64,000 bases of DNA from Amycolatopsis viridis (GTDB lineage: Bacteria; Actinomycetota; Actinomycetes; Mycobacteriales; Pseudonocardiaceae), in the NCBI RefSeq assembly GCF_011758765.1, contig NZ_JAANOU010000001.1:4836001-4900000 (forward strand), in the 5' to 3' direction. Below are positions 16,356-37,354 of this stretch, in pieces; the stretch's first letter is position 1, and every line of letters starts with the position of its first letter. A model generated the notes under the pieces. That model did no database searches. It had not been told where the DNA came from and was given only the letters and a program-made list of their open reading frames with translations. Position numbers and translations under genes: made by a program.

Positions 16356-17264
16356 TCAGGCCAGCGACTCCGCGATCCAGTCGGTGACCGACGTGTGCCG
16401 TGGCCGCCAGTCGAGCTCCTCGCGGGGCGCCACCCCGCGGACCCGGCTGTTGGATCCGAGCGCGTAGACGGCGGGCTCGTAGCCCCATTCCGCGATGGCC
16501 GACTCGATGTCGAGGGGCTCGGGCCCGGGGAGTCCGAGGGCACCGGCGATGGTTTCGGTGATCTCGCGGAAGCTGGCCTCCCCGTTCTCCACGAAGTAGA
16601 ACGAGCCGGGAGTCGCGCCGTCCAGCGCGCGGAGGTAGAGGTCGCAAACATCGGCCAGGTGCACGTTGGACCAGATGTTCGCGCCGGGGCCGATGTGGCG
16701 GACGACGCCCGTCCGGCGGCTCGTGGCGACCAGACGCGGGATCTGGACGCTGTCGGCGCTCAGTCCCAGGCCGGTCCCGTAGATCATGGAGTTGCACAGG
16801 ACGACCGACCGCACGCCGCGGTCCGCGGCGGCGAGGACCGCGCGGTCGATCGCCACCCGGGCCGCCTTGTCCGGTGCCGGCTGCCACCCCGCACCTTCGG
16901 CCACGTCGGCCTCGGTGTAGACCTCCTCCTGCGGTTCGCCGGCCGTGGCCTCACCGACGATGCTCGAACCGCTGGTGTGCAGCAGGGGTTTGCCGGAGCC
17001 CGCCAGTGCGGTGACCAGTGCGGTGACAGCGCCCGCGTGGTCGCTGTCCGCCGCGTTGATCACCGCGTCGGCGGCTCGTGCCTCCTCGGCGAGGACGTCG
17101 GGCCGGTCGAGGTCGCCGAGAACCGGATCGACGCCCCGCGCGCGGAGGGCGGCGACCGTGTTCTCCGAGCGCGTCAGGCCACGAACGTGGTGCCCGGCTT
17201 CCACCAGTTGCACGGCGAGCGAGCCGCCGAGGTAGCCGGTCGCTCCGGTGAGGAAGATGCGCAT
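16356..17264 (-). CDS. Extended SDR / NAD-dependent epimerase-dehydratase
   Basis: The 302-residue protein begins MRIFLTGATGYLGG, the glycine-rich NAD(P)-binding loop of extended SDRs. It continues with GDLDRPDVL and a domain typical of the epimerase/dehydratase subgroup (SNVHLADVCDLYLRAL). The usual YxxxK is not obvious; PDKAARVAIDRAVLAA occupies the corresponding helix, so the catalytic mode is uncertain. It is the last gene of the operon 16356-23963 and starts 19 bp after the aldolase stop. A redox or epimerisation step on the imported carbohydrate is inferred. Confidence 0.75.
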   Translation of the reverse strand: MRIFLTGATGYLGGSLAVQLVEAGHHVRGLTRSENTVAALRARGVDPVLGDLDRPDVLAEEARAADAVINAADSDHAGAVTALVTALAGSGKPLLHTSGSSIVGEATAGEPQEEVYTEADVAEGAGWQPAPDKAARVAIDRAVLAAADRGVRSVVLCNSMIYGTGLGLSADSVQIPRLVATSRRTGVVRHIGPGANIWSNVHLADVCDLYLRALDGATPGSFYFVENGEASFREITETIAGALGLPGPEPLDIESAIAEWGYEPAVYALGSNSRVRGVAPREELDWRPRHTSVTDWIAESLA

Positions 17265-17283: not shown

Positions 17284-18135
17284 TCAGTGTCGGCTGTCCG
17301 GCTCGGTGCCGGACAGGATGTCTCGCGCGGTCTGCAGCGGCGTGTCCGGTTCGTGCACCAGTGTCATGAGCGCTCGAACCATCCGCCGCGGATGGGGATG
17401 GTGGATGATGTTGCGGCCGTACACGATGCCCGCCGCGCCCTGCCGCATGATCTGCGCCGTTCGTTCCAGCAGCTCGTCGTCGGGAGCCCGGCCACCCCCG
17501 CGCACGAGGACCGGCACCGACGTGGCGACCTCGACCACCCGGTGGAACTCTTCCGGATCGGTGCACGGATCGGCCTTGATGACGTCGGCGCCGAGCTCGG
17601 CGGCCTGGCGGACCAGCGCCATGATCTTCACCAGGTCGCCGTCGACCTGGTAACCGCCCCGCGAGTTGGGGGCCATCACCAGCGGCTCGATCATCAACGG
17701 CATGCCTGCCCGCTCGGTCGCGCGCTTGAGCCGGGATATGTTGCGAATGCACTGGTGGTGCAGTTCGGGCTGGTCCGGCAGCTGCATCAGGTTGACGACC
17801 ACGCAGACCGCGTCCGCGGCCACCGCGATGTCCACGACCTCGTCCACCAGCGTCGAGAACGGGTGCCGCGGCAACGTCGAACCGTACACATTGGACACGT
17901 CGGTGCGCAGCGCCAGTGCGGGACGGCGGCGCCCGCGCAGCCCGTCGAGGTGGCGCACCATGCCCGGGGTCAGCTGGATGACGTCCGGTTCGGCCTCGGC
18001 GAGGGTGTGCACGGTCGTGCGCATGTTCTCGATGCCACCGAGGAAACTGGGTTCGTCGACCATGCCGTGGTCGATGGCGACGTCGAGGCAACGGCCGCTG
18101 GCGTTGAACATGCGGTCCAGTCGTGGGGTGACCAT
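17284..18135 (-). CDS. Class I aldolase of the LsrF/FbaB/DeoC type
   Basis: The 283-residue TIM-barrel protein reads CLDVAIDHGMVDEPSFLGG at its start. It carries GADVIKADPCTD, whose lysine is the probable Schiff-base residue, and GGGRAPDDELLERT followed by GAAGIVYGRNIIHH, the phosphate-binding end typical of FbaB/LsrF. Cleavage or thiolysis of a phosphorylated keto-sugar is expected from the family. The exact substrate is unknown. The start ATG at 18135 follows the VOC stop with a one-base gap. The position between kinase genes and an SDR fits a kinase-then-aldolase catabolic route. Confidence 0.8.
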   Translation of the reverse strand: MVTPRLDRMFNASGRCLDVAIDHGMVDEPSFLGGIENMRTTVHTLAEAEPDVIQLTPGMVRHLDGLRGRRRPALALRTDVSNVYGSTLPRHPFSTLVDEVVDIAVAADAVCVVVNLMQLPDQPELHHQCIRNISRLKRATERAGMPLMIEPLVMAPNSRGGYQVDGDLVKIMALVRQAAELGADVIKADPCTDPEEFHRVVEVATSVPVLVRGGGRAPDDELLERTAQIMRQGAAGIVYGRNIIHHPHPRRMVRALMTLVHEPDTPLQTARDILSGTEPDSRH

Positions 18136-18136
18136 G

Positions 18137-19342
18137 TCAGCGCGCGTCCTCCGGCGGGTAGACCGAAACCATGTCCGGCGGCAGGTCGAGCAGCGGGCAG
18201 TTGCCGAGTTCGTAGATGAAGTCGAGCTTGGGTTCGGTGCCCAGGTAGTAGTGGACGTCGGTCTCGAACTGCCCGGTCTGCAGCACACCGATTCCCTTGT
18301 CGCGGAATCCGGCGAGGACGCGGTCGATGTCCTCGTCGGGGATCTGTTCCTTGATGTGGTGCAGTCCCTCGCCCTTGCGCGCCAGGTGGTCCTCGTAGAT
18401 CGTCGGCCCGTACACCGGCTGGATGATCTCCAGCTGCATGTCGCCGATCCAGGAGATCGCGATCAGGAACTTGAAGGGTTCGGTGACCTTCTGATCGGCG
18501 ACCTTGAGGTACTTCATGGTCTCTTCGGTGAACGTGAGGACGGTCCACGGACCGATGCCCAGGTTCTCCACCCAGGACTGCATGCTCTTTTCGAGATCGC
18601 GGGTGATGAAGGCGATCTGGTAGATCTTGCGGCGCTTGTTGAGTTCGGTGAGTTCGGCGTTGTTCATCGGTTGCCTTCCGTGTCGAGAGGTGGACGACGT
18701 GAGGTGGTCGTCGGCCCAGTCCGCCATGGCCGTGAAGATCAGCGCGGTGGACAGGGCGCCCGGGTCGGGGTGGCCGAGGGATCGGTCCTTCAGGCTGACG
18801 GCTTTGCCGAACCGGGCGAGGTAGTTCCTGGTGCGGTCCGCGCCGTCGGCAGCGGCATCCGCCGCACGGTGCACCGCGGTGCGGAGGTCGTGGCCGGCCG
18901 CGGCGCTTTCGGCGAGCGCGCGGGTCGCGGGTTCGAGCGCGTCCACCATGGTCTTGTCCCCCGGTGCCGCACCACCGCGCTCGGTGATCTGGGCCAGGGA
19001 CCGGGCGAAGTGGTCGGCGAGCCCCGCGACGTCGAGGTGGCGGGCCGCCGCGCGGTCGGCTGCCCCGGCGCGGAACAGGAGCCCGAAGATGACCCCGGAT
19101 GCACCACCCATGCTGCGGAGGAGAGCGTTCCCCGCCGTGGTGAACACCGCGTGCACGTCGTCGAAGGTGGCGCCGGCGAGCGCGGCGCGCGCGGCGGTGA
19201 AGCCGCGGGTCATGCCGAGGCCGTGGTCGCCGTCCCCGACCTCGCGGTCCGCCTTGCTCAGCTCGGGCTCGGCGGCGATGACCCGGTCGGCCACGTTCAC
19301 CAGCATGTCCCGCAGCTGGCCGGCGGTGAGTTCGGTCGTCAT
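18137..19342 (-). CDS. DhaL kinase domain fused in frame to a VOC (glyoxalase-fold) domain
   Basis: The 401-residue frame starts at ATG 19342 (overlapping the DhaK stop, ATGA). Residues about 1-210 are DhaL: VGDGDHGLGMTRG (Mg-ATP aspartates), GGASGVIFGLLFRAGA, ALEPATRALAE and DPGALSTALIF. A linker (DDHLTSSTSRHGRQP) leads without a stop codon into a VOC domain (about 226-401: IYQIAFITRDLEKSMQSWV, GDMQLEIIQPVYG, GLHHIKEQI, LDFIYELGNCPLLDL). The VOC part has its own ATG at 18667 with GGAAGG upstream, so a stand-alone VOC product is also possible. DhaL transfers phosphate to substrate held by DhaK. The VOC domain may isomerise or bind a dicarbonyl. Such fusion is unusual. Confidence 0.75.
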   Translation of the reverse strand: MTTELTAGQLRDMLVNVADRVIAAEPELSKADREVGDGDHGLGMTRGFTAARAALAGATFDDVHAVFTTAGNALLRSMGGASGVIFGLLFRAGAADRAAARHLDVAGLADHFARSLAQITERGGAAPGDKTMVDALEPATRALAESAAAGHDLRTAVHRAADAAADGADRTRNYLARFGKAVSLKDRSLGHPDPGALSTALIFTAMADWADDHLTSSTSRHGRQPMNNAELTELNKRRKIYQIAFITRDLEKSMQSWVENLGIGPWTVLTFTEETMKYLKVADQKVTEPFKFLIAISWIGDMQLEIIQPVYGPTIYEDHLARKGEGLHHIKEQIPDEDIDRVLAGFRDKGIGVLQTGQFETDVHYYLGTEPKLDFIYELGNCPLLDLPPDMVSVYPPEDAR

Positions 19343-20340
19343 GATCCGTTCACCCCGTGGAAGAACGAGGTGCGGGCGGGCGCGTCGTAGTGCGGCCGCA
19401 GTTCGGGGGGCATGGCGAACACGCTGAGCGAGAAGCCGTGCATTTCCTGGCTGGTGGCGAACTCTCCGACCTGGGTGTCGTGGATCGCGACTCCGCGCTC
19501 GGTCAGGTTCTCCACCGCCCGCCGTGCCGCGATGAACAGTTCGGCGCGGGTCGTCGCGCCGAGTCCGTTGACCAGCAGGCACACCGGGTCTCCGGCGGGG
19601 ACCGGACGGTCGGCGAGGACCAGGTCGAGCATCGCGTCCACGGTGTCGTCGGCGGTCATCAGGTCCGCGCGGCGCACCCCGACTTCGCCGTGCATCCCCA
19701 TCCCGATTTCCATCTTCCCGTCCGGCAGCTCGAAGGTCGGCTGGCCGGTACCGGGGACGATGCCCGCACCGCTGGCCACACCGATGCTGCGGGTGCAGTC
19801 GGCCGCTTGCTGGGTGAGCGCACGAACGCTCTCCAGCGGCAGCCCGGCTTCGGCGGCGGCGCCGGCGATCTTGGCAGCGAAGAACCCGCCCGCGATGCCC
19901 CGCCGGTCGGCCATCCGGTCGGGCCCGGCCGCGGCGACGTCGTCGGCGATCCGGACCGTCTCGACCTGGTGCCCGTCCTCGCGCAACAGATCCGCCGCGA
20001 GGTCGAAGTTGAGCCGGTCACCGGAGTAGTTGCCGTACAGGAAAAGCACGCCGTGTCCACTGTCGACGGACTTCGCCGTGGTCACGATGCTGTGCGGGTC
20101 GGGAGCGGCGAAGACGTCGCCCTGGCAGACCGCGTCCGCGAAACCCGGACCGAGGTATTCCAGCCAGACCGGCTCGTGCCCGCTGCCACCGCCCGAGACG
20201 ATCGCGACCTTCCCGGTTCGCGAGCGCCGGCGGATGGCGAGCGCGCCGGGTACCGCCTCGAAGTCCCGGCCGTGGACGGCGAGGAACCCGTCGAGGGTCT
20301 CCCTCGCCACCGCGTCCGGTTTGTTGATGAACTTCCGCAT
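19339..20340 (-). CDS. dhaK: DhaK-type (dihydroxyacetone kinase family) substrate-binding subunit
   Basis: The 333-residue protein starts MRKFINKPDAVARETLDGF. It contains IVSGGGSGHEPVWLEYLGPGFADAVCQGDVFAAP, the family's ketose-binding loop, and GMGMHGEVG, whose histidine forms the covalent hemiaminal with the keto group. The GNYSGDRLNFD segment is also diagnostic. No PTS component (DhaM, HPr or EI) is nearby, so ATP is the likely phosphoryl donor via DhaL. DhaK/L relatives are known to phosphorylate tetruloses and other ketoses besides dihydroxyacetone, so the substrate is open. The start has GGAGAAACC-ATG, and the stop overlaps the DhaL start. Confidence 0.9.
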   Translation of the reverse strand: MRKFINKPDAVARETLDGFLAVHGRDFEAVPGALAIRRRSRTGKVAIVSGGGSGHEPVWLEYLGPGFADAVCQGDVFAAPDPHSIVTTAKSVDSGHGVLFLYGNYSGDRLNFDLAADLLREDGHQVETVRIADDVAAAGPDRMADRRGIAGGFFAAKIAGAAAEAGLPLESVRALTQQAADCTRSIGVASGAGIVPGTGQPTFELPDGKMEIGMGMHGEVGVRRADLMTADDTVDAMLDLVLADRPVPAGDPVCLLVNGLGATTRAELFIAARRAVENLTERGVAIHDTQVGEFATSQEMHGFSLSVFAMPPELRPHYDAPARTSFFHGVNGS

Positions 20341-20361: not shown

Positions 20362-21348
20362 TCAGCCCGCGTGGGTCGCCAGGTATTCCTGGACGGGGGC
20401 GGGGTTGTCGTGGGTGAAGGCGGGGCCGGGCGTGTAGTGCTCGTACGGTCCGGTGTTCTGTCCGCTGTGGATCTGCTCGGCGATCTTGATCACCTCGCCC
20501 GCCCAGGACGCGGCATCCTGGCCGGTGGTTTCGACGACGGTGCCGGCCGGGTCGAGCAGGAGCTGTCCGACGGTCGGGTTGATGCCGATGCCGAAGACGA
20601 CCGCCTTGCCGGTGAGGCCGCGTGCCCTGATGGCGTTCGCGGCGGCGACCACACCGTCTTCGTTCTCGGCGAGGAAGACGTCGACGTCGGGATGCGCGGC
20701 GAGGATCGAGGTGGCCACCGGTGTCGCCTTGTCCACGACGAATCCTTCCTGGGCGGCTGCGACGTCGATGTCCAGGCCGGCCAGCCCCTGGTCGAGCCCC
20801 TCGCGCCGTTGCTTGCACACGTCGTAGGTCTCGCACGTCAGGTAGGCGATGGTGGCCTTGCCGCCGAGCTTGGTCCTGATGTAGTCGGCGGCCGCGGCGG
20901 CGGTGGTGGCACCGAGCTTGCGCTGGTCGTTGGTGACGAAGGCCCGGGTGAGCTGCTGGTCGTCCGGCGCGTTGAGGCAGGTGTTGTAGCAGATCACCGG
21001 AACACCGCTGGAGTTCAGGCGGCGCAGCGCGGCCAGTGATCCGGTGGGTGAGACGACACTGGCGATGACCATGTCCACCTTGCGTGTCCCGCACGCGGTG
21101 AGGACCTGGTTCTCCTTGGCCGAGTCGTTGTTGACGTCCTGGACGTCGAACGTCATGCCGTGCTGGGCGCCCTGGTTCTGCAGAGCGGTGGTGAACTCGG
21201 CGAACGTGCCGGTCGGGAACAACGTGGTGACACACGCGGTGAAGCGGTTGCCGCCGACGGGGGCCGACGTGCACCCGGCGAGCACGAGGAGGCCGGCGGC
21301 GAGCGCGATCGCGGCTGTCCGCCGTGCCGCGGTGAATCGGCGTTTCAT
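20362..21348 (-). CDS. Sugar ABC transporter substrate-binding lipoprotein 1
   Basis: The 328-residue protein has a lipoprotein signal peptide (AIALAAGLLVLAGC, lipobox LAGC near residue 26). A ribose-type periplasmic-binding fold follows (VISVVSPTGSLAALRRL-like hinge, AHPDVDVFLAENEDGVVAAANAIRARGLTGKAVVFGIGI). It has unusual cysteine pairs in the mature domain: CYNTC near residue 120 and CETYDVCKQRR near 170. These recur in the paralogue at 26228, and paired disulfides or a special ligand contact are possible. AAAGGA is spaced 9 bases before the ATG. The gene lies 24 bp after the permease gene of its transporter. Confidence 0.85.
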   Translation of the reverse strand: MKRRFTAARRTAAIALAAGLLVLAGCTSAPVGGNRFTACVTTLFPTGTFAEFTTALQNQGAQHGMTFDVQDVNNDSAKENQVLTACGTRKVDMVIASVVSPTGSLAALRRLNSSGVPVICYNTCLNAPDDQQLTRAFVTNDQRKLGATTAAAAADYIRTKLGGKATIAYLTCETYDVCKQRREGLDQGLAGLDIDVAAAQEGFVVDKATPVATSILAAHPDVDVFLAENEDGVVAAANAIRARGLTGKAVVFGIGINPTVGQLLLDPAGTVVETTGQDAASWAGEVIKIAEQIHSGQNTGPYEHYTPGPAFTHDNPAPVQEYLATHAG

Positions 21349-21372: not shown

Positions 21373-22410
21373 CTAGTTCCGGCCGGTACCGATGAGCCGC
21401 CGGGGCCGCGACGACGGCTTGATGGCGCTGACGAGCACGGCGAGCAGCACGATGGCGCCGTTGGCGACGTTCTGCGCGTAGCTGTTGACACCCAGCAGCA
21501 CCATGCCGTTGTTGAGCACGCCGATGAACACCACGCCGAGCAGCGTCCCGACCATCGAGCCGCGACCGCCGTAGAGGTTCGCGCCGCCGACGATCACGGC
21601 CGTGATGACCTCGAACTCGACACCCGTGCCGATGGTGGGGTTGCCCGCGCCCAGCTGGGACGTCTGCAGCAGCCCGGACACCGCCGCGAGCAGTCCGGTG
21701 GTGGCGAACAGGGTCGTCCGCACGGCGCGCACCGGGATCCCGGACAGGCGCGCGGCTTCGGCGTTGCTGCCGATCGCGTAGACGCTGCGGCCGAACGTGG
21801 TCCGCTTGGCGATCAGCCAGAAGATCAGGAACAGCGCCAGGAAGATCACCGCGGGGACGGGCACGCCGAGCACGGATCCGTTGCCCCAGGTGGCGAAGCC
21901 CGGATCGGTGATCGGCAACGGGACCGCGTCGGTGATCAGCAGCGCCAGGCCGCTCAGCGCCGAGAAGAGCGCGAGGGTCACGATGAACGACGGCATGTTC
22001 AGCACGGCGCGCACGAGCCCGGCACCAGCGCCGATCAGCGCGCCGAGCACGCAGACGGTGACCGCGGCCAGCCACATCGGCCAGTGCTGGTGCACCACGA
22101 GGACACCGAACAACGACGAGTTGAACGCGATCGCCGAGCCGACGCTGATGTCGATCTCCGCGGCCACGATCACCAGCGTCATGCCGAAGGCGATGGTTCC
22201 GGTGAACGAGAGCTGCCGCGCCACGTCCAACAGATTGCTGCCGCTGAGGAAGTTGGGGGCGGCGAACGACAGCACCACGACCAGCGCGACCAGTGCACCG
22301 AGCAGGCCGAGGTGATCGCCGCCGACGCGACCGGTCATCCGCGCCAGTGCACCTCGCGGTGGAGCGGACTCGGAGGCGGGCCGGGTTGCGGTGGGTACCG
22401 GGGTGGTCAC
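21373..22410 (-). CDS. Ribose-type ABC transporter permease
   Basis: The 345-residue protein has about 8-10 membrane helices and the RbsC-family pattern: NFLSGSNLLDVARQLSFTGTIAFGMTLVIVAAEIDISVG, then IGSNAEAARLSGIPV and VGGANLYGGRGSMVGTLLGV. GTG at 22410 overlaps the ATPase stop (GTGA), which decides the start. The frame's upstream part is a shadow of the ATPase gene. It forms the transporter with the ATPase at 22407 and binding protein at 20362. Confidence 0.9.
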   Translation of the reverse strand: MTTPVPTATRPASESAPPRGALARMTGRVGGDHLGLLGALVALVVVLSFAAPNFLSGSNLLDVARQLSFTGTIAFGMTLVIVAAEIDISVGSAIAFNSSLFGVLVVHQHWPMWLAAVTVCVLGALIGAGAGLVRAVLNMPSFIVTLALFSALSGLALLITDAVPLPITDPGFATWGNGSVLGVPVPAVIFLALFLIFWLIAKRTTFGRSVYAIGSNAEAARLSGIPVRAVRTTLFATTGLLAAVSGLLQTSQLGAGNPTIGTGVEFEVITAVIVGGANLYGGRGSMVGTLLGVVFIGVLNNGMVLLGVNSYAQNVANGAIVLLAVLVSAIKPSSRPRRLIGTGRN

Positions 22411-23963
22411 TGCTGTCCTCCCATCGCCAGGGCCATCACCGAGGGCAGCGCGGTGTCCGCGACCTTCGGTTGCGCCACCACGTGGCCGTCGCGCAGGACG
22501 AGCAGCCGATCGCACACTTCGAACAGCTCCTCCAGTTCGGAGGAGACCATCAGGACCGCGGCTCCGGTTGCCGCCAGATCCCGGATGAGCTGGTAGATCT
22601 GGTCCTTGGCCTCCACGTCGACCCCGCGGGTCGGCTCGTCGAGCAGGAGCACGCGGGTACCGGCGTTCAGGAGCTTGCCGAGGACGACCTTCTGCTGGTT
22701 GCCGCCGGAGAGAGTGCCGACCGCGGTGCGCAGCGACGGTGTCTTCACCGAAAGGCGCGTGCAGCTGGCGGTCGCAGTCCGGCGTTCGCGCCCGGCGGAG
22801 AGCAGGCCGCGCGACCGCACGGCGGGCAGGGACGCCATCACGAGATTGGCCGAGACGCTCATCCCCAGTGCCAGTCCCTCCCGCTTGCGGTCTTCCGGAG
22901 CGAGCCCCACTCCGGCGCGTATCGCCTGCCGGGGGTTGCGCGGCCGGAACGGCTGCCCGTCGAGCCGCATCGACCCGCTGGCCGGCGTCGTGAGGCCGGA
23001 CAGGCAGCGGAGCAGCTCGGTGCGCCCGGACCCGAGAAGCCCCGCGATGCCGACGACTTCGCCTTCCCGCAGTTCGAACGTAACGTCGCGCACTTTGTCC
23101 GCTGTGGACAGTCCGCTCACCGAGAGCACGGTGCGCCCGGCTGCGGCGGTCGTTCGCGGGCGGTGGGAGTGGATCGCGCCTCCGGTCATCATGTCGACGA
23201 TCTGCGCGGTGTTCGCCTCGCTGATCGGCCGGGTGGCGACGTGCTGCCCGTCGCGCAGTACCGTCACCGAGTCCGCGACCCGGGGAATCTCGTCCATGCG
23301 GTGCGACACGTACACCACGGACAGCCCGTCGGCGGCCAGCCGGCGCACCAGCTCGAGCAGGGCCGCGACCTCGGCCGTGGCCAGCGAACTGGTGGGCTCG
23401 TCCAGGATCAGGACCTTGCCGCCGTAGGACAACGCCCTGGCTATCTCGACCATCTGCTGCTGCGCGACGCTGAGTGCGCCGACCTTGGCCTTCGGGTCGA
23501 TGGCGACGCCCAGGACACCGAGATGCCGCTGCGCGTACGCAGCCATCGCGGCCGGGCTGATCAGGGGCCCCCGGGTGCCGGCCTCGCGCCAGCGCCCCAG
23601 CAGCAGGTTCTCGGCGACGGTCAGCTCGGGCACCAGGCTCAGTTCCTGGTGGACGGTGGCGATGCCCGCCGCCCGTGCCTCGGCGGGCCCGGCCGGCTGC
23701 ACCACCTGCCCGTCCAGCTCGATACGCCCAGCGTCGGCACGCAGCGCACCCGAGAGGATCTTGACGAGGGTGGACTTCCCGGCCCCGTTCTTGCCCAGGA
23801 GGGCCCGAACCTCACCGGCCGCCAGGTGGAAGTCCACACCGTCCAGGGCGCGGACACCCGGGTAGTTCTTCACCAGTCCCCGCACGGCCAGGCGCACGGG
23901 GCTGCCGCCCGCTGCGTCCGCTCGGCAGACCGACCCAGACGGGTCATCCACGGAGGGCTTCAT
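22407..23963 (-). CDS. Ribose-type ABC transporter ATPase with two nucleotide-binding domains
   Basis: The 518-residue protein contains two ABC domains. The first has LGKNGAGKSTLVK, LSVAQQQMVEIARAL and LILDEPTSSL. The second has the degenerate loop GLLGSGRTELLR, LSGGNQQKVVLGKLL and LLLDEPTRGVDVEAK. This RbsA/XylG architecture energises a homodimeric permease. ATG at 23963 has AAGGAG six bases upstream, better than the upstream in-frame ATGs. It is the first gene of the operon and is preceded by the promoter/operator at 24015-24079. The C-terminus overlaps the permease start by four bases. Confidence 0.9.
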   Translation of the reverse strand: MKPSVDDPSGSVCRADAAGGSPVRLAVRGLVKNYPGVRALDGVDFHLAAGEVRALLGKNGAGKSTLVKILSGALRADAGRIELDGQVVQPAGPAEARAAGIATVHQELSLVPELTVAENLLLGRWREAGTRGPLISPAAMAAYAQRHLGVLGVAIDPKAKVGALSVAQQQMVEIARALSYGGKVLILDEPTSSLATAEVAALLELVRRLAADGLSVVYVSHRMDEIPRVADSVTVLRDGQHVATRPISEANTAQIVDMMTGGAIHSHRPRTTAAAGRTVLSVSGLSTADKVRDVTFELREGEVVGIAGLLGSGRTELLRCLSGLTTPASGSMRLDGQPFRPRNPRQAIRAGVGLAPEDRKREGLALGMSVSANLVMASLPAVRSRGLLSAGRERRTATASCTRLSVKTPSLRTAVGTLSGGNQQKVVLGKLLNAGTRVLLLDEPTRGVDVEAKDQIYQLIRDLAATGAAVLMVSSELEELFEVCDRLLVLRDGHVVAQPKVADTALPSVMALAMGGQQ

Positions 23964-24014
23964 GCCCTGCTCCTTCCAGCTCATCCCGCCACGTCGCGGG
24001 CGACTCGGCGTCCC

Positions 24015-24050
24015 GTTCAAAATTTCGTCGCATCGTCCGAATTACTGAAC
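24015..24050. promoter_or_regulatory. 36-bp inverted-repeat operator of the catabolic operon
   Basis: GTTCAAAATTTCG (24015-24027), a 10-bp gap and CGAATTACTGAAC (24038-24050) form an inverted repeat with 10 of 13 paired positions. It abuts the -10 hexamer of the operon promoter and covers its start site. The same 13-10-13 layout recurs at 26064-26099. Confidence 0.65.
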
Positions 24051-24079
24051 AGTGAAATGGGCTGGGCAGGTTCTGTCAA
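24051..24079 (-). promoter_or_regulatory. Promoter of the ABC transporter/kinase operon
   Basis: On the minus strand TTGACA (24079-24074) is followed after 17 bp by TTCACT (24056-24051). The predicted start near 24044 lies in the operator. It drives the ATPase, permease, binding protein, DhaK, DhaL-VOC, aldolase and SDR genes. Confidence 0.65.
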
Positions 24080-24120
24080 GGGGCGGAGCGGAGTAGCAGC
24101 CCAGGAGAAGCCCGGGAACC

Positions 24121-24882
24121 TCAGTCCTGGATCAGCTCGGCGAGCCGGCGAGCGAGCCCGCGCACCGGCTCGGCGTCCTCGTCGGGGTCGTGGACCTGGT
24201 CGAGATCGACGACCGAGCCGACGGCCGCCACACAGCCGGTCAGGCCACCGACGACGGCCGCGGTACCGGCCAGCTGCATCTCGCCGAGCTCCGCGTTGGA
24301 GGCGTACCCGCGCTGCTGGGCCAGCGTGACCGCGGCCGTCAGCTCGGCGAGCCGGAACGGGTGGCCGCTCGGCGATTCGGGCACCCGGCCGCGGTGCATC
24401 CGTTCGACCACGTCGACCGGCAACGCGGACAGCAACGCGCGCCCGGTGCCGGTGGACCAGGCCGGCATGCGCATGCCGGGCTTCAAGGTCAGCGCCAACG
24501 GACGCACACCGGGCCGGACAGCCAGGTAGGCCACGTCGAGATCCGCGAGCACAGCCAGCACGACGGTACGGCCGCGCAGGCCCGGCGCCTGGGCGCACGC
24601 GCGCGGAAACACCTCCAGCAGCCGGCTCCCGCCGACCAGCCCGCGGGCGATCCGGCCGATCGCCGGGCCGACCTGCACGCCACCGTCGAGATCGCGGGTC
24701 AGCATGCCCAGGTCCAGCAGGACCCCGCAGATGTCGGCCAGCGAACTCTTGGGGGCGTCCAGCCGGCGGCTGAGTTCCGCCACGCTCACCGTTTCGTCCT
24801 GCGCGGCGAGTTCCCGCAGGACACGGGCCGCGCGACGCACGGCGGGCGAACCGCTCCGGCCCTCTGCTTGCGCCATCGTCAT
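24121..24882 (-). CDS. IclR-family transcriptional regulator
   Basis: The 253-residue protein has an N-terminal IclR winged helix (SPAVRRAARVLRELAAQDETVSVAELSRRLDAPKSSLADICGVLLDLGMLTRD, about 12-70). An effector-binding domain follows (about 85-250), with the LKPGMRMPAWSTGTGRALLSALP segment typical of IclR proteins. Its ATG at 24882 overlaps the stop of the upstream regulator (ATGA). Together with that gene it probably controls the shared operator sequences at 24015 and 26064. Its ligand is unknown. Confidence 0.85.
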   Translation of the reverse strand: MTMAQAEGRSGSPAVRRAARVLRELAAQDETVSVAELSRRLDAPKSSLADICGVLLDLGMLTRDLDGGVQVGPAIGRIARGLVGGSRLLEVFPRACAQAPGLRGRTVVLAVLADLDVAYLAVRPGVRPLALTLKPGMRMPAWSTGTGRALLSALPVDVVERMHRGRVPESPSGHPFRLAELTAAVTLAQQRGYASNAELGEMQLAGTAAVVGGLTGCVAAVGSVVDLDQVHDPDEDAEPVRGLARRLAELIQD

Positions 24883-26048
24883 CCCCACGGCTGGTAGTCG
24901 GCGAGAGTGTCCCTGGTGATCAACGTCGTCGGCAGGAGCCTTCGCTTCCCGTCGGCGAGCGCGTCGCCGGCGTGCGCCTGGGCGGCGTACTGGACGGCCA
25001 GCCGGCCGAGGCGCGCGGGATCCTGCGCCGCGGTCGCCTGCCACGGCCCGCCACTCCCGATCGCTTCGACCGCGACCGCGGCGCCGTCGATGCTCACCAG
25101 CGGAACGGCGACACCGAGGTCCGTCATCGCGGCCAGAGCGCCGGCGGCCATCGGATCGTTGATCGCGAAGATCGCGCTCAGACCGGGATGGCGGGTCAGC
25201 AGCCGGCGCGCGATGTGCTCGCCGGAGGCCACGGAGTGATCGCCTCGCTGACGGGCGACGACCGTGATGTCCGGGTGGTCGCGCAGCGCCCCGAGGAACC
25301 CGACGATCCGGTCCGCGACCGCGGTCACCGGCTGACCGTCCACGATCGCGACGTTTCCCCGTCCGCCCAGCAGACCGGCCAGATAGCTGCCCACCAGGTG
25401 CCCGGCCTGCACGTTGTCCGTGGTCACGGTCGCCCGCGCGCCTTCCGCGCCGACGTTGACCGCGACCACGGGGACACCGGCAGCCTGCGCCTTCGCCACG
25501 ACCTCGCCGACGGTGGTCGAGTGGACCGCGTCCAGCACGATCGCGTCGACCCCCGCCTCCACGAACTCCTCGATCTGCCGGACCTGGGCTTGCGCGTCCT
25601 GCTCCGCGTCGACCGCGACCACCTCGGCACCGAGCTCACCCGCCGCCTGCCGGATTCCCGCGATCTCCACCGCGTAGAACGGGTTCAGGCTGTTCGGGAC
25701 GGTGACGCCGAGCGTGCCGAGCAGCGGCGGACGGGCCGCCTGGGCGGCGGCGAGCTCCGCGACCGCGAGGCCGAGCGTGTACCGGCCGCCCAGGTCCTGC
25801 GCGAGCAGCCGCTCTTCCACCAGAGCCTGGCAGATCCCGAGCAGGCTGCTTTTCGGCAACGCCAGGCGCCGGGCCAGGTTCGCGAGCGTCGCCGGGCCGT
25901 TGCGGGCGATGTCGTCGAGCACCGCCATCGCGCGGCTGACGGCAGGCACCCGCGAAGCGAGGTCGGCAACCGGCCCCCGCTCTCCCCCGCTCGCCTCGGC
26001 CACACCAACCTCCCCATGCCCGTCCGCGCGAGCACTTGACACCGACAT
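24879..26048 (-). CDS. Chimeric regulator: IclR-type winged helix fused to a sugar periplasmic-binding domain
   Basis: The 389-residue protein carries an IclR-type HTH (VPAVSRAMAVLDDIARNGPATLANLARRLALPKSSLLGICQALVEERLL, about 33-85). This is followed by a Peripla_BP-type domain (LGVTVPNSLNPFYAVEIAGIRQAAGELG, IEEFVEAGVDAIVLDAVHS, AAGVPVVAVNVG, RHPGLSAIFAINDPMAAGALAA). The IclR effector domain is absent. LacI regulators join this ligand domain to a different HTH, so the combination is unusual. Direct sensing of the transported sugar is inferred. ATG at 26048 follows a -10-like TACATT by five bases. Autoregulation is likely because the operator at 26064 covers its -35 region. Confidence 0.8.
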   Translation of the reverse strand: MSVSSARADGHGEVGVAEASGGERGPVADLASRVPAVSRAMAVLDDIARNGPATLANLARRLALPKSSLLGICQALVEERLLAQDLGGRYTLGLAVAELAAAQAARPPLLGTLGVTVPNSLNPFYAVEIAGIRQAAGELGAEVVAVDAEQDAQAQVRQIEEFVEAGVDAIVLDAVHSTTVGEVVAKAQAAGVPVVAVNVGAEGARATVTTDNVQAGHLVGSYLAGLLGGRGNVAIVDGQPVTAVADRIVGFLGALRDHPDITVVARQRGDHSVASGEHIARRLLTRHPGLSAIFAINDPMAAGALAAMTDLGVAVPLVSIDGAAVAVEAIGSGGPWQATAAQDPARLGRLAVQYAAQAHAGDALADGKRRLLPTTLITRDTLADYQPWG

Positions 26049-26063
26049 CCACGAATGTATCTT
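26036..26063 (+). promoter_or_regulatory. Promoter of the second binding-protein operon
   Basis: TTGACA (26036-26041) and TATCTT (26058-26063) are separated by 16 bp. The operator begins at the very next base (26064), just as at the divergent operon promoter near 24051. The predicted transcript starts near 26070. Confidence 0.6.
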
Positions 26064-26099
26064 GTTCACAATACCGCGTTCCCGGCCGAAATATCGACC
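26064..26099. promoter_or_regulatory. Second copy of the 36-bp operator
   Basis: GTTCACAATACCG (26064-26076), a 10-bp gap and CGAAATATCGACC (26087-26099) reproduce the 24015-24050 site (10 of 13 and 9 of 13 identities per arm, same gap). It lies between the chimeric regulator and the second binding-protein gene and would control both. Confidence 0.65.
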
Positions 26100-26227
26100 G
26101 GCCTCGATCTCCCTCGGCTCTGCCCCTCCCGGAACCGGCCAGGCAGAGCGAACACCTCTGGGCAGCAAACCCCTGGGCCACGTTCCGCTGCCCGAATCCG
26201 ACCCGACCCGGCCCGACGGAGACGACG

Positions 26228-27205
26228 ATGTCCCGAACCGCCCACACGCTCGCCGCCACCCTACTCACACTCACCGCGATCACCACCGCCTGCGCACCCG
26301 GCACGGCAGACCATTCCCGGCTGAAGATCGGTGTGGTGGAACTGTTCTCCAACCCCTTTTTCGCCGAAGCCCGAGCCGGAATGGAGAAGGCCGCCGCGGA
26401 AGGCGATGCCGACCTGGTCATCAACAACGCGAACGCGGACTCGGCCAAGGAAGCCGGCTTCGTCACCACCTACCTCACCCAGAAGGTCGATGCGATCGTG
26501 CTGTCCGCGGTGTCGCCGACGGGTTCCCTGGCCACCCTCCACCGCATCAAGGCGGCCCATGTGCCCGTCGTCTGCTACGACACCTGCGTCAACCCACCGG
26601 ACGACCAGCAACTCGTCGACGCCTTCGTCACCAGCGACAACCGGGGCCTCGGCGCGACAACCGGCCGCCAGGCGGCCACCTACATCAGGGACGAGCTGAG
26701 CGGGAGCGCCAAGGCCATCATGCTCACCTGCGAAGAGTTCGACGTCTGCAAACAACGGCGCACCGGGCTCGACGCGGAACTCGCCGCGGTCCATGTCGAC
26801 CTGCTCGCCGAGCAGGAGGGCTACCAGGTCGACAAGGCCACCCCGATCGCCAACTCCATGCTGGCCGCACACCCCGACGCCCAGGTGATCATCGCCGAGA
26901 ACGAGGACGCCATCCTCGCCGCGGCCACCGCCGTCAAAGCACGCGGACTGACCGGGAAAGTGGCGATCTTCGGCATCGACATCGACCCGCAAGTGGCGCT
27001 CCTGATCACCCAGCCCGCGACCGACGTGAAGTGGACCACCGGTCAATCCCCGTTCGACATGGGTTACCAAGCGGTGCAAGCCGCCATCGCGAGAGCACAC
27101 GGCCGGCCGGCCGGCGACTTCTACCACCACACCCCATCACCCACGTTCTCCTCGGCGGACCCGGCCAGTGCCCGGAACTACCTCGATTCGCACCACACCA
27201 ATTGA
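26228..27205 (+). CDS. Sugar ABC transporter substrate-binding protein 2 (paralogue)
   Basis: The 325-residue secreted protein has a signal peptide (HTLAATLLTLTAITTAC, with a weak lipobox) and a ribose-type binding fold (VVELFSNPFFAEARAGMEKAA, AIVLSAVSPTGSLATLHRI, AHPDAQVIIAENEDAILAAATAVKARGLTGKVAIFGIDI). It is clearly paralogous to the 20362 protein, including CYDTC and CEEFDVCKQRR cysteine pairs. No permease or ATPase is adjacent, so it may feed the 21373/22407 transporter with a second ligand or act as a sensor. GGAG precedes the ATG. It is divergent from the chimeric regulator and shares the operator at 26064. Confidence 0.8.
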   Translation: MSRTAHTLAATLLTLTAITTACAPGTADHSRLKIGVVELFSNPFFAEARAGMEKAAAEGDADLVINNANADSAKEAGFVTTYLTQKVDAIVLSAVSPTGSLATLHRIKAAHVPVVCYDTCVNPPDDQQLVDAFVTSDNRGLGATTGRQAATYIRDELSGSAKAIMLTCEEFDVCKQRRTGLDAELAAVHVDLLAEQEGYQVDKATPIANSMLAAHPDAQVIIAENEDAILAAATAVKARGLTGKVAIFGIDIDPQVALLITQPATDVKWTTGQSPFDMGYQAVQAAIARAHGRPAGDFYHHTPSPTFSSADPASARNYLDSHHTN

Positions 27206-27229: not shown

Positions 27230-27631
27230 ATGAGCAATCCCGACAACGAAATGGTCGTTCGCCAGTTCGTCGACGCTCTCAACGACGGCGACCTCACCAC
27301 GATCGCCGACATCCTCGCCGACGAGGCGAGCTGGCACCTGCACGGAACCCTGCCCGTCGCGGGTCACTACGAGGGACGTGACGCGGTCCTCAACGACTTC
27401 CTCAGCCAGGGGCTCGGGCTCTACGAACCCGGCAGCCTGAAGATCGAACTCACCAGCATCGTGTCGGACGGTCCCACCGTTGCCATCGAATGGCACGCCA
27501 CCGGGCGCAGCGCCAGGGGAAACCTCTACGACAACGAATACGCCCTGTTCTTCCACCTGACCGACGGCAAGATCGCCGCGATCCGCGAGTACTGCGACAC
27601 GCTGCACGTCAACGACGCGCTCTACGGCTGA
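27230..27631 (+). CDS. NTF2-like / SnoaL-type small protein
   Basis: The 133-residue protein starts MSNPDNEMVVRQFVDALNDGDLTTIADILADEASWHLHG, the classic opening helix and strand of the SnoaL/ketosteroid-isomerase-like fold. It ends TDGKIAAIREYCDTLHVNDALYG. Such domains bind or isomerise small hydrophobic or sugar-like molecules; no catalytic identity can be assigned. It begins 24 bp after the second binding-protein gene with AGGAAGG upstream, so it belongs to the same operon. Confidence 0.75.
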   Translation: MSNPDNEMVVRQFVDALNDGDLTTIADILADEASWHLHGTLPVAGHYEGRDAVLNDFLSQGLGLYEPGSLKIELTSIVSDGPTVAIEWHATGRSARGNLYDNEYALFFHLTDGKIAAIREYCDTLHVNDALYG

Positions 27632-32014: not shown

Positions 32015-32131
32015 GTTCGGCGGTGTCCTACTCTCCCACACCCGCGGGGGTGCAGTACCATCGGCGCTGGCAGGCTTAGCTTCCGGGTTCGGAATGGGAC
32101 CGGGCGTTTCCCTACCGCCATGACCACCGAA
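32015..32131 (-). rRNA. rrf: 5S ribosomal RNA
   Basis: The minus strand reads GTTTCGGTGGTCATGGCGG at its 5' side and ends CACCGCCGAAC. The middle contains GGGAAACGCCCGGTCCCATT and CCGAACCCGGAAGCTAAG, the conserved 5S loops. The ends pair as in 5S helix I. End positions are approximate by a few bases. Confidence 0.95.
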
Positions 32132-32212
32132 ACTCTCCGAAACAACACCAGAGCGTTTCCAGTCCGGTGTGGTGTCTCAGAGTTGCAGAGCGGATGCGTA
32201 GCAGCTTTGTGG

Positions 32213-37135
<4,923 letters not shown>

Positions 37136-37354
37136 ATGCTAGAAAATCGATCCGGCTATAATTCATAGCCTCAAAGGAACCCACAAAGGGTTCTAGCTAA
37201 TCAAACTGGCTTTAGCTCATCAATACACTGTTGAGTTCTCAAACAACACGAAGCTGCTGCTTCTTCAAAGCTTTTGTTGGTTGTCGCGGAGGGCGTCAGC
37301 AACCCTACTCGTTTAGTAGTAGTGGTTGGCGACCCACCCGCGGGCCGACCAAGA
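37136..37354 (-). other. rRNA leader with processing/antitermination sequence
   Basis: Downstream of the promoter, the minus-strand leader carries TTGTTTGAGAACTCAACAG (37232-37214 region), whose TTTGAGAACTCAA inverted repeat is common in actinobacterial pre-rRNA leaders. The rest is AT-richer than the surrounding DNA and has no gene. Confidence 0.6.

Follow-up and report, generated by a model that had tools for sequence, protein, structure and literature searches.

Predicted control of the sugar-use locus

The sugar-use locus of Amycolatopsis viridis raises the question of what two similar 36-bp elements do beside its two promoters, and which proteins might read them. The locus occupies 16.3-27.7 kb of the window (the whole stretch of 64,000 nucleotides that was analysed) in a host genome of 5.68 Mb. 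Besides two regulators, it contains the following genes:

16356..17264, minus strand: NAD-dependent epimerase/dehydratase-like protein (Pfam)
17284..18135, minus strand: DeoC/LacD (DhnA-type) aldolase (Pfam)
18137..19342, minus strand: DhaL (Dak2) plus a VOC/glyoxalase-like domain in a single open frame (Pfam)
19339..20340, minus strand: DhaK-type protein (Dak1; Pfam)
20362..21348, minus strand: sugar substrate-binding protein SBP_A (Peripla_BP_4; Pfam)
21373..22410, minus strand: sugar ABC transporter permease (BPD_transp_2; Pfam, start codon by eye)
22407..23963, minus strand: sugar ABC transporter ATPase, first gene behind element S1 (Pfam)
26228..27205, plus strand: second sugar substrate-binding protein SBP_B, first gene behind element S2 (Pfam)
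27230..27631, plus strand: SnoaL/NTF2-like protein, second gene behind S2

NCBIfam matches of the DhaK, aldolase and VOC proteins were all below their cut-offs. A literature search on tetritol pathways, meant to help identify the substrate, listed papers on engineered pathways. The single frame combining DhaL and VOC is also found in A. deserti (L033 3490-4695), and in Thermomonospora echinospora the two are separate, overlapping genes (L039 9047-9727 and 9724-10254). Elsewhere in the window, a complete rRNA operon (5S, 23S, 16S; 32015-37136, minus strand) accounts for a stretch of lower GC content near 32-37 kb.

Two 36-bp elements and their promoters

The elements, the promoters that they adjoin and the regulator genes are arranged as follows:

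24015..24050, minus strand: S1, predicted tandem IclR-type operator, boxes 24035-24050 and 24015-24030 with centres 20 bp apart, 3' of the promoter of the transport/catabolic operon
24051..24079, minus strand: promoter-like TTGACA-17-TTCACT adjoining S1 (by eye; kept in G001, A. deserti and T. echinospora)
24121..24882, minus strand: reg2, IclR-family regulator, HTH_IclR plus IclR_C (Pfam)
24879..26003, minus strand: reg1, hybrid regulator, HTH_IclR plus Peripla_BP_4 with a ribose-type substrate-binding-protein fold (Pfam; structure and fold search)
26036..26063, plus strand: promoter-like TTGACA-16-TATCTT adjoining S2 (promoter scan; conserved)
26064..26099, plus strand: S2, predicted tandem IclR-type operator, boxes 26064-26079 and 26084-26099, separating the regulator pair from the divergent SBP/SnoaL genes

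Both elements lie exactly where the sequence-only reading had placed them, and recomputation returned the same 10-bp gap and the same identities between arms, i.e. 10 of 13 positions for the left and 9 of 13 for the right arms; the gaps agree at 3 of 10. When S1 was compared with the entire 64 kb in either orientation, S2 was the sole other place whose arms matched at no fewer than 19 of 26 positions; when the window was shuffled 300 times under a first-order Markov model, one shuffle contained such a place. The inverted-repeat layout that had been described stood in part: the 13-10-13 arms are present, but their self-complementarity is unremarkable, amounting to 10/13 in S1 (a level reached by 46 window positions) and 7/13 in S2 (3624 positions). 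A repeat finder returned neither element as an inverted pair, and the simple inverted repeat was dropped as a reading, as was a terminator, there being no terminator-like site within 23900-26300. S2 by itself is a weak inverted repeat; the case for operators is a comparative one.

It had further been claimed that both elements start at the base next to a -10 hexamer, on opposite strands, with TTGACA as -35 and spacers of 17 and 16 bp. This was borne out, with a poor -10 (TTCACT, 3/6) at S1 that the promoter scan did not return. The S2 promoter matches 10 of 12 consensus positions and was the only sigma-70-type match of the scan in 23900-26300. TTCACT is identical in G001 and A. deserti, and its T. 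echinospora copy stands 2 bases further from the site. Inspection by eye of 14 sites in seven related clusters (see below) revealed TTGACA upstream of 13 and TTGACT upstream of the remaining one; a -10-like hexamer abuts 11 of them, lies 2 or 4 bases off in two, and is unclear in S3 of Microbacterium aerolatum.

Conservation of the site pair

Seven clusters bearing the hybrid regulator were found, in a search that scored about five candidates in each genome under strict limits on the E-value and could thus miss diverged hybrids. Two of them, in G001 and A. deserti, encode close counterparts of reg1 (97% and 91% identity, respectively) and contain both S1 and S2. In A. deserti, the arms and the promoter are nearly unchanged and the gap is again 10 bp, while the letters inside it and large parts of the flanking sequence have changed.

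A matrix was trained on the 12 half-sites of the three Amycolatopsis clusters (window, G001, A. deserti) and applied to the four further hybrid-bearing loci. With the gap held at 10, this held-out scan returned exactly two top places in each: scores of 39.0 and 17.0 in T. echinospora (L039; next-best 4.8), 31.3 and 24.1 in M. aerolatum (L040; 5.3), 42.3 and 32.4 in G1292 (L107; 3.9), and 35.8 and 32.7 in G1422 (L108; 6.4). Maxima in 100 Markov shuffles each were 15.1 for L039 and 16.9 for L040, and the T. echinospora S2 (17.0) is therefore the one weak case. Other loci, 285,901 bp in total, gave a best score of 10.2, and loci with single-gene relatives but without the hybrid stayed at 4.3 (L109), 3.8 (L113) and at most 4.9 (L114-L117, four loci of LacI type). 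The 13-10-13 pattern, for which a scan of related genomes had been suggested, is thus kept in all seven, with a 10-bp gap of variable letters in 14 of 14 sites; these clusters are not independent, as three come from Amycolatopsis and those of G1292 and G1422 are alike.

In each cluster, one site is situated just upstream of the regulator pair, which makes autoregulation plausible. The second site precedes transport/catabolic genes in all clusters but that of M. aerolatum; there, the first site is flanked by the regulators and the DhaK gene, and the second is followed by an oxidoreductase gene. The genes opposite the regulators vary. A. deserti has no SBP_B gene there (L033 11404-11460), and its S2 directly precedes the SnoaL-like gene; in T. 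echinospora (L039 1074-2189), G1292 (L107 11076-12239) and G1422 (L108 11056-12198), a zinc-type alcohol dehydrogenase (by inspection) takes this position. The operator is hence retained while the gene behind it is swapped between clusters.

We also searched five genomes at E <= 10 with a 36-position model built from the sites themselves, scoring 150 first-look candidates per genome. Within this scope, the known places were recovered together with one partial match (E = 2, in G011), and no further credible places were found, so the regulon looks local.

Predicted tandem IclR-type palindromes within the elements

For group 1 of the IclR family, the survey by Suvorova and Gelfand (2021, PMC8222616) gives the box GKTYCRYW3-4RYGRAMC, with the even-length form NGTYCRAW4TYGRACN. 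For 94 groups, it also describes boxes in tandem whose centres lie 18-22 bp apart, an arrangement that it links to tetramers. Consensus strings from this source were scored along the 14 sites, each extended by 60 bp of flanking sequence in both directions; seven strings were tried, and the best-fitting one is quoted. With its centre at position 8.5 or 28.5 of the element, this even-length form (NGT-12-ACN) scored 12.86 of 16 on average, compared with at most 8.57 elsewhere and a background of 5.75. Altogether, 26 of the 28 boxes beat all other positions in their segment and two tie. In the window, the boxes score 15 and 13 of 16 in S1, and 11 and 14 of 16 in S2. Box centres are 20 bp apart in all 14 sites, inside the published range (PMC8222616). 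With the 18-long group 1 string, the maxima fall on these centres too (12.29 and 12.00 of 18); with the 17-long strings, they fall one half to one position to the side. The consensus of IclR group 2 did not fit and was rejected; its best means (8.21/15 and 8.64/16) fell off the two box centres.

As the published consensus peaks at exactly the box centres, the operator belongs to a known kind. From these comparisons, the 13-10-13 layout is better read as the visible part of two predicted tandem 16-bp palindromes, 20 bp from centre to centre: the outer halves (GTTC) are strong and the inner ones weak, and for this reason the element resembles an inverted repeat with a 10-bp gap. Internal symmetry is highest at a palindrome length of 16 (0.46, versus 0.17-0.28 at other lengths), and left/right symmetry within the boxes does not go beyond what follows from column composition (103 versus 100.6 pairs). 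Single boxes scoring at least 12 of 16 against the quoted consensus occur at 19 window positions, those of S1 and S2 included, and at no fewer than nine positions in 19.5 kb of control locus L113. The specific feature is the conserved pair of boxes. Promoter-near and promoter-far boxes differ slightly in composition; two protein specificities were not adopted as an explanation of this difference, the lineages being too few.

Compared with the group 1 tandem operators of that survey (PMC8222616), the present elements share even-length GTYCRAW4TYGRAC boxes in tandem, 20 bp between centres and a position near promoters of transport/catabolic genes. They differ in the strong outer (GTTC) and weak inner half-boxes, and in that one likely reader is a non-canonical IclR protein. 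The GTTCGATNATCG-type half-sites of PcaR/PcaU/PobR operators, as given in Table 1 of that survey (PMC8222616), resemble GTTCRNNATNTCG found here; those operators consist of a palindrome with one extra direct half-site, whereas here two palindromes stand in tandem.

Taken with the IclR motif family, the pair conserved in seven of seven clusters supports the earlier proposal of one operator family at both promoters. The two elements are genuine and, pending experiment, are to be regarded as operators on comparative grounds. By contrast, it is scarcely credible that the S1/S2 similarity is due to chance, or to an RNA or terminator feature unrelated to the regulators: such a reading could draw on the poor symmetry of S2, but would have to accommodate conserved arms around a gap free in letters and fixed in length at every site, the match to an independently published motif, and the absence of terminator-like sites from 23900-26300.

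The two regulators

Two regulators had been noted between the sites, and both indeed carry HTH_IclR by Pfam. In reg1, this N-terminal domain is clear (E = 1e-9; 38.4 bits against a cut-off of 22), and Peripla_BP_4 comes after it (residues 104-351, counted on the translated stretch). Pfam gave reg1 no match to IclR_C, the canonical IclR C-terminal effector domain, and no LacI helix-turn-helix model at E <= 0.001; MarR_2 stayed below its cut-off. Pfam, structure and fold search all assign the sensor to the type I periplasmic-binding-protein fold, with substrate-binding proteins as the closest chains. By sequence, among the best 60 of 136 matches, it is close to 4rwe (9.6e-45) and the ribose-binding 2ioy (4.9e-37), and the best LacI chain among the matches listed is 9nt3 (1.5e-18). 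LacI regulators do not appear among the best 50 fold-search matches listed, which is no evidence of their absence.

The reg1 start is more likely the GTG at 26003, after GGGGAGG (by eye), than 26168, as in the listed frame 24879-26168; an ATG near 26017 is out of the reg1 frame and missing in G001. A possible start codon of reg2 overlaps the reg1 stop (ATGA), with an alternative start at 24876, and reg2 is probably translationally coupled to reg1. By its domains, reg2 is a canonical IclR regulator (HTH_IclR 34.9 bits, IclR_C 30.4 bits; cut-offs 22 and 24), with a recognition helix similar to that of reg1 and a weak, below-cut-off similarity to the PcaR/PcaU/PobR family. Both regulators are present in all seven clusters, reg2 always directly behind reg1. 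HTH_IclR was detected in both regulators of T. echinospora, G1292 and G1422. Of the six clusters in which reg2 was read whole, five have the helix PKSS(L/V)(A/S)DIC, and M. aerolatum has PKSTVGDLC.

Four further hybrid candidates (28-30% identity, with matches reaching into the HTH part of reg1) were rejected. Three start with a LacI-type helix (by eye); the fourth, from a frame that is too long and was read without its start, aligns to reg1 across the part to which its G001 counterpart also aligns. The site is absent from all four (best score 4.9). Among plasmids, 111 records matched reg1 at E <= 1e-20, none of them spanning 80% of the query. In titles and abstract beginnings of open-licence PubMed Central text, we found no description of a fusion between an IclR head and a periplasmic-binding domain, and one may exist elsewhere. 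A substrate-binding lipoprotein encoded beside another ABC transporter of the same genome (L034 8729-9745; G000:C1, about 2.83 Mb) is 42.6% identical to the reg1 sensor; no operator of the S1/S2 type was found within the surrounding 18 kb.

Proposed mechanism

In our model, S1 and S2 would serve as tandem IclR operators of two 16-bp palindromes each, immediately downstream of the -10 hexamers of the two promoters of the locus. Encoded between the sites, reg1 and reg2 would bind both of them, most likely as a tetramer, and would thereby block the ABC transporter/kinase/aldolase operon and the divergent accessory genes, probably together with their own operon. The block would then be released when the reg1 sensor binds a small sugar or polyol taken up by the transporter, or its derivative. 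Sites that start next to the -10 and run downstream fit repression by blockage of RNA polymerase, and the ribose-type sensor fits release by such a ligand. As a whole, we consider this explanation very probable, judging from sequence.

By analogy, reg1 probably works like a LacI/GalR repressor (RbsR and others), with which it would share a DNA-binding head joined to a ribose-type sugar-sensing fold and local control of a sugar-use locus. In contrast to these, its head is HTH_IclR and its sensor is nearer to ABC substrate-binding proteins by sequence (best 60 of 136 matches). Unlike the ribose-type substrate-binding proteins of CUT2 ABC transporters, it has a helix-turn-helix at its N-terminus and, by eye, no signal peptide or lipobox.

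A narrower form of this explanation, to which we give somewhat less than an even chance, has a single regulator, most likely the hybrid, reading both sites, with the IclR partner binding elsewhere or acting without DNA contact. In its favour, HTH_IclR in M. aerolatum is clear in the hybrid (42.6 bits) and falls just short in reg2 (21.5 against a cut-off of 22, with no IclR_C match), and both sites persist. Against this, reg2 has retained its IclR-type helix and its place behind reg1 in the clusters as described above.

PcaU and PobR are activators, and the weak similarity of reg2 to their family might indicate that the present regulators activate instead of repress. We regard this as improbable: at 11 of the 14 sites the element follows the -10-like hexamer without an intervening base and continues downstream, a placement suited to blocking RNA polymerase and not to recruiting it, and the S2 promoter is so close to consensus that an activator would hardly be needed.

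Returning to repression by both regulators, a more elaborate version can be envisaged, which we offer as speculation and consider rather doubtful. Here, a mixed reg1/reg2 tetramer would occupy each tandem operator with one dimer or half per palindrome, so that the promoter would integrate two signals: a sugar, detected by the substrate-binding domain that the hybrid has captured, and another metabolite, detected by IclR_C in the partner protein. In the hybrid, an ABC substrate-binding protein would then have been recruited a second time, independently of LacI, to sense sugar in the cytoplasm.

Significance

Judged by its sequence, the operator is of a known kind, and the unusual part is its likely reader, a substrate-binding-protein/IclR hybrid beside an IclR partner. 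The locus offers a compact, testable local regulon with defined predicted operators, represented in Amycolatopsis, in Microbacterium and in the order to which Thermomonospora belongs; these operators could be used as a reporter to find the substrate of the cluster. Adjacent regulators with similar heads and a two-box operator form a natural system in which to ask whether related regulators co-assemble. Finally, the joining of an IclR head to a ribose-type substrate-binding domain is a rare regulator design, which may have reached the LacI layout by a separate route.
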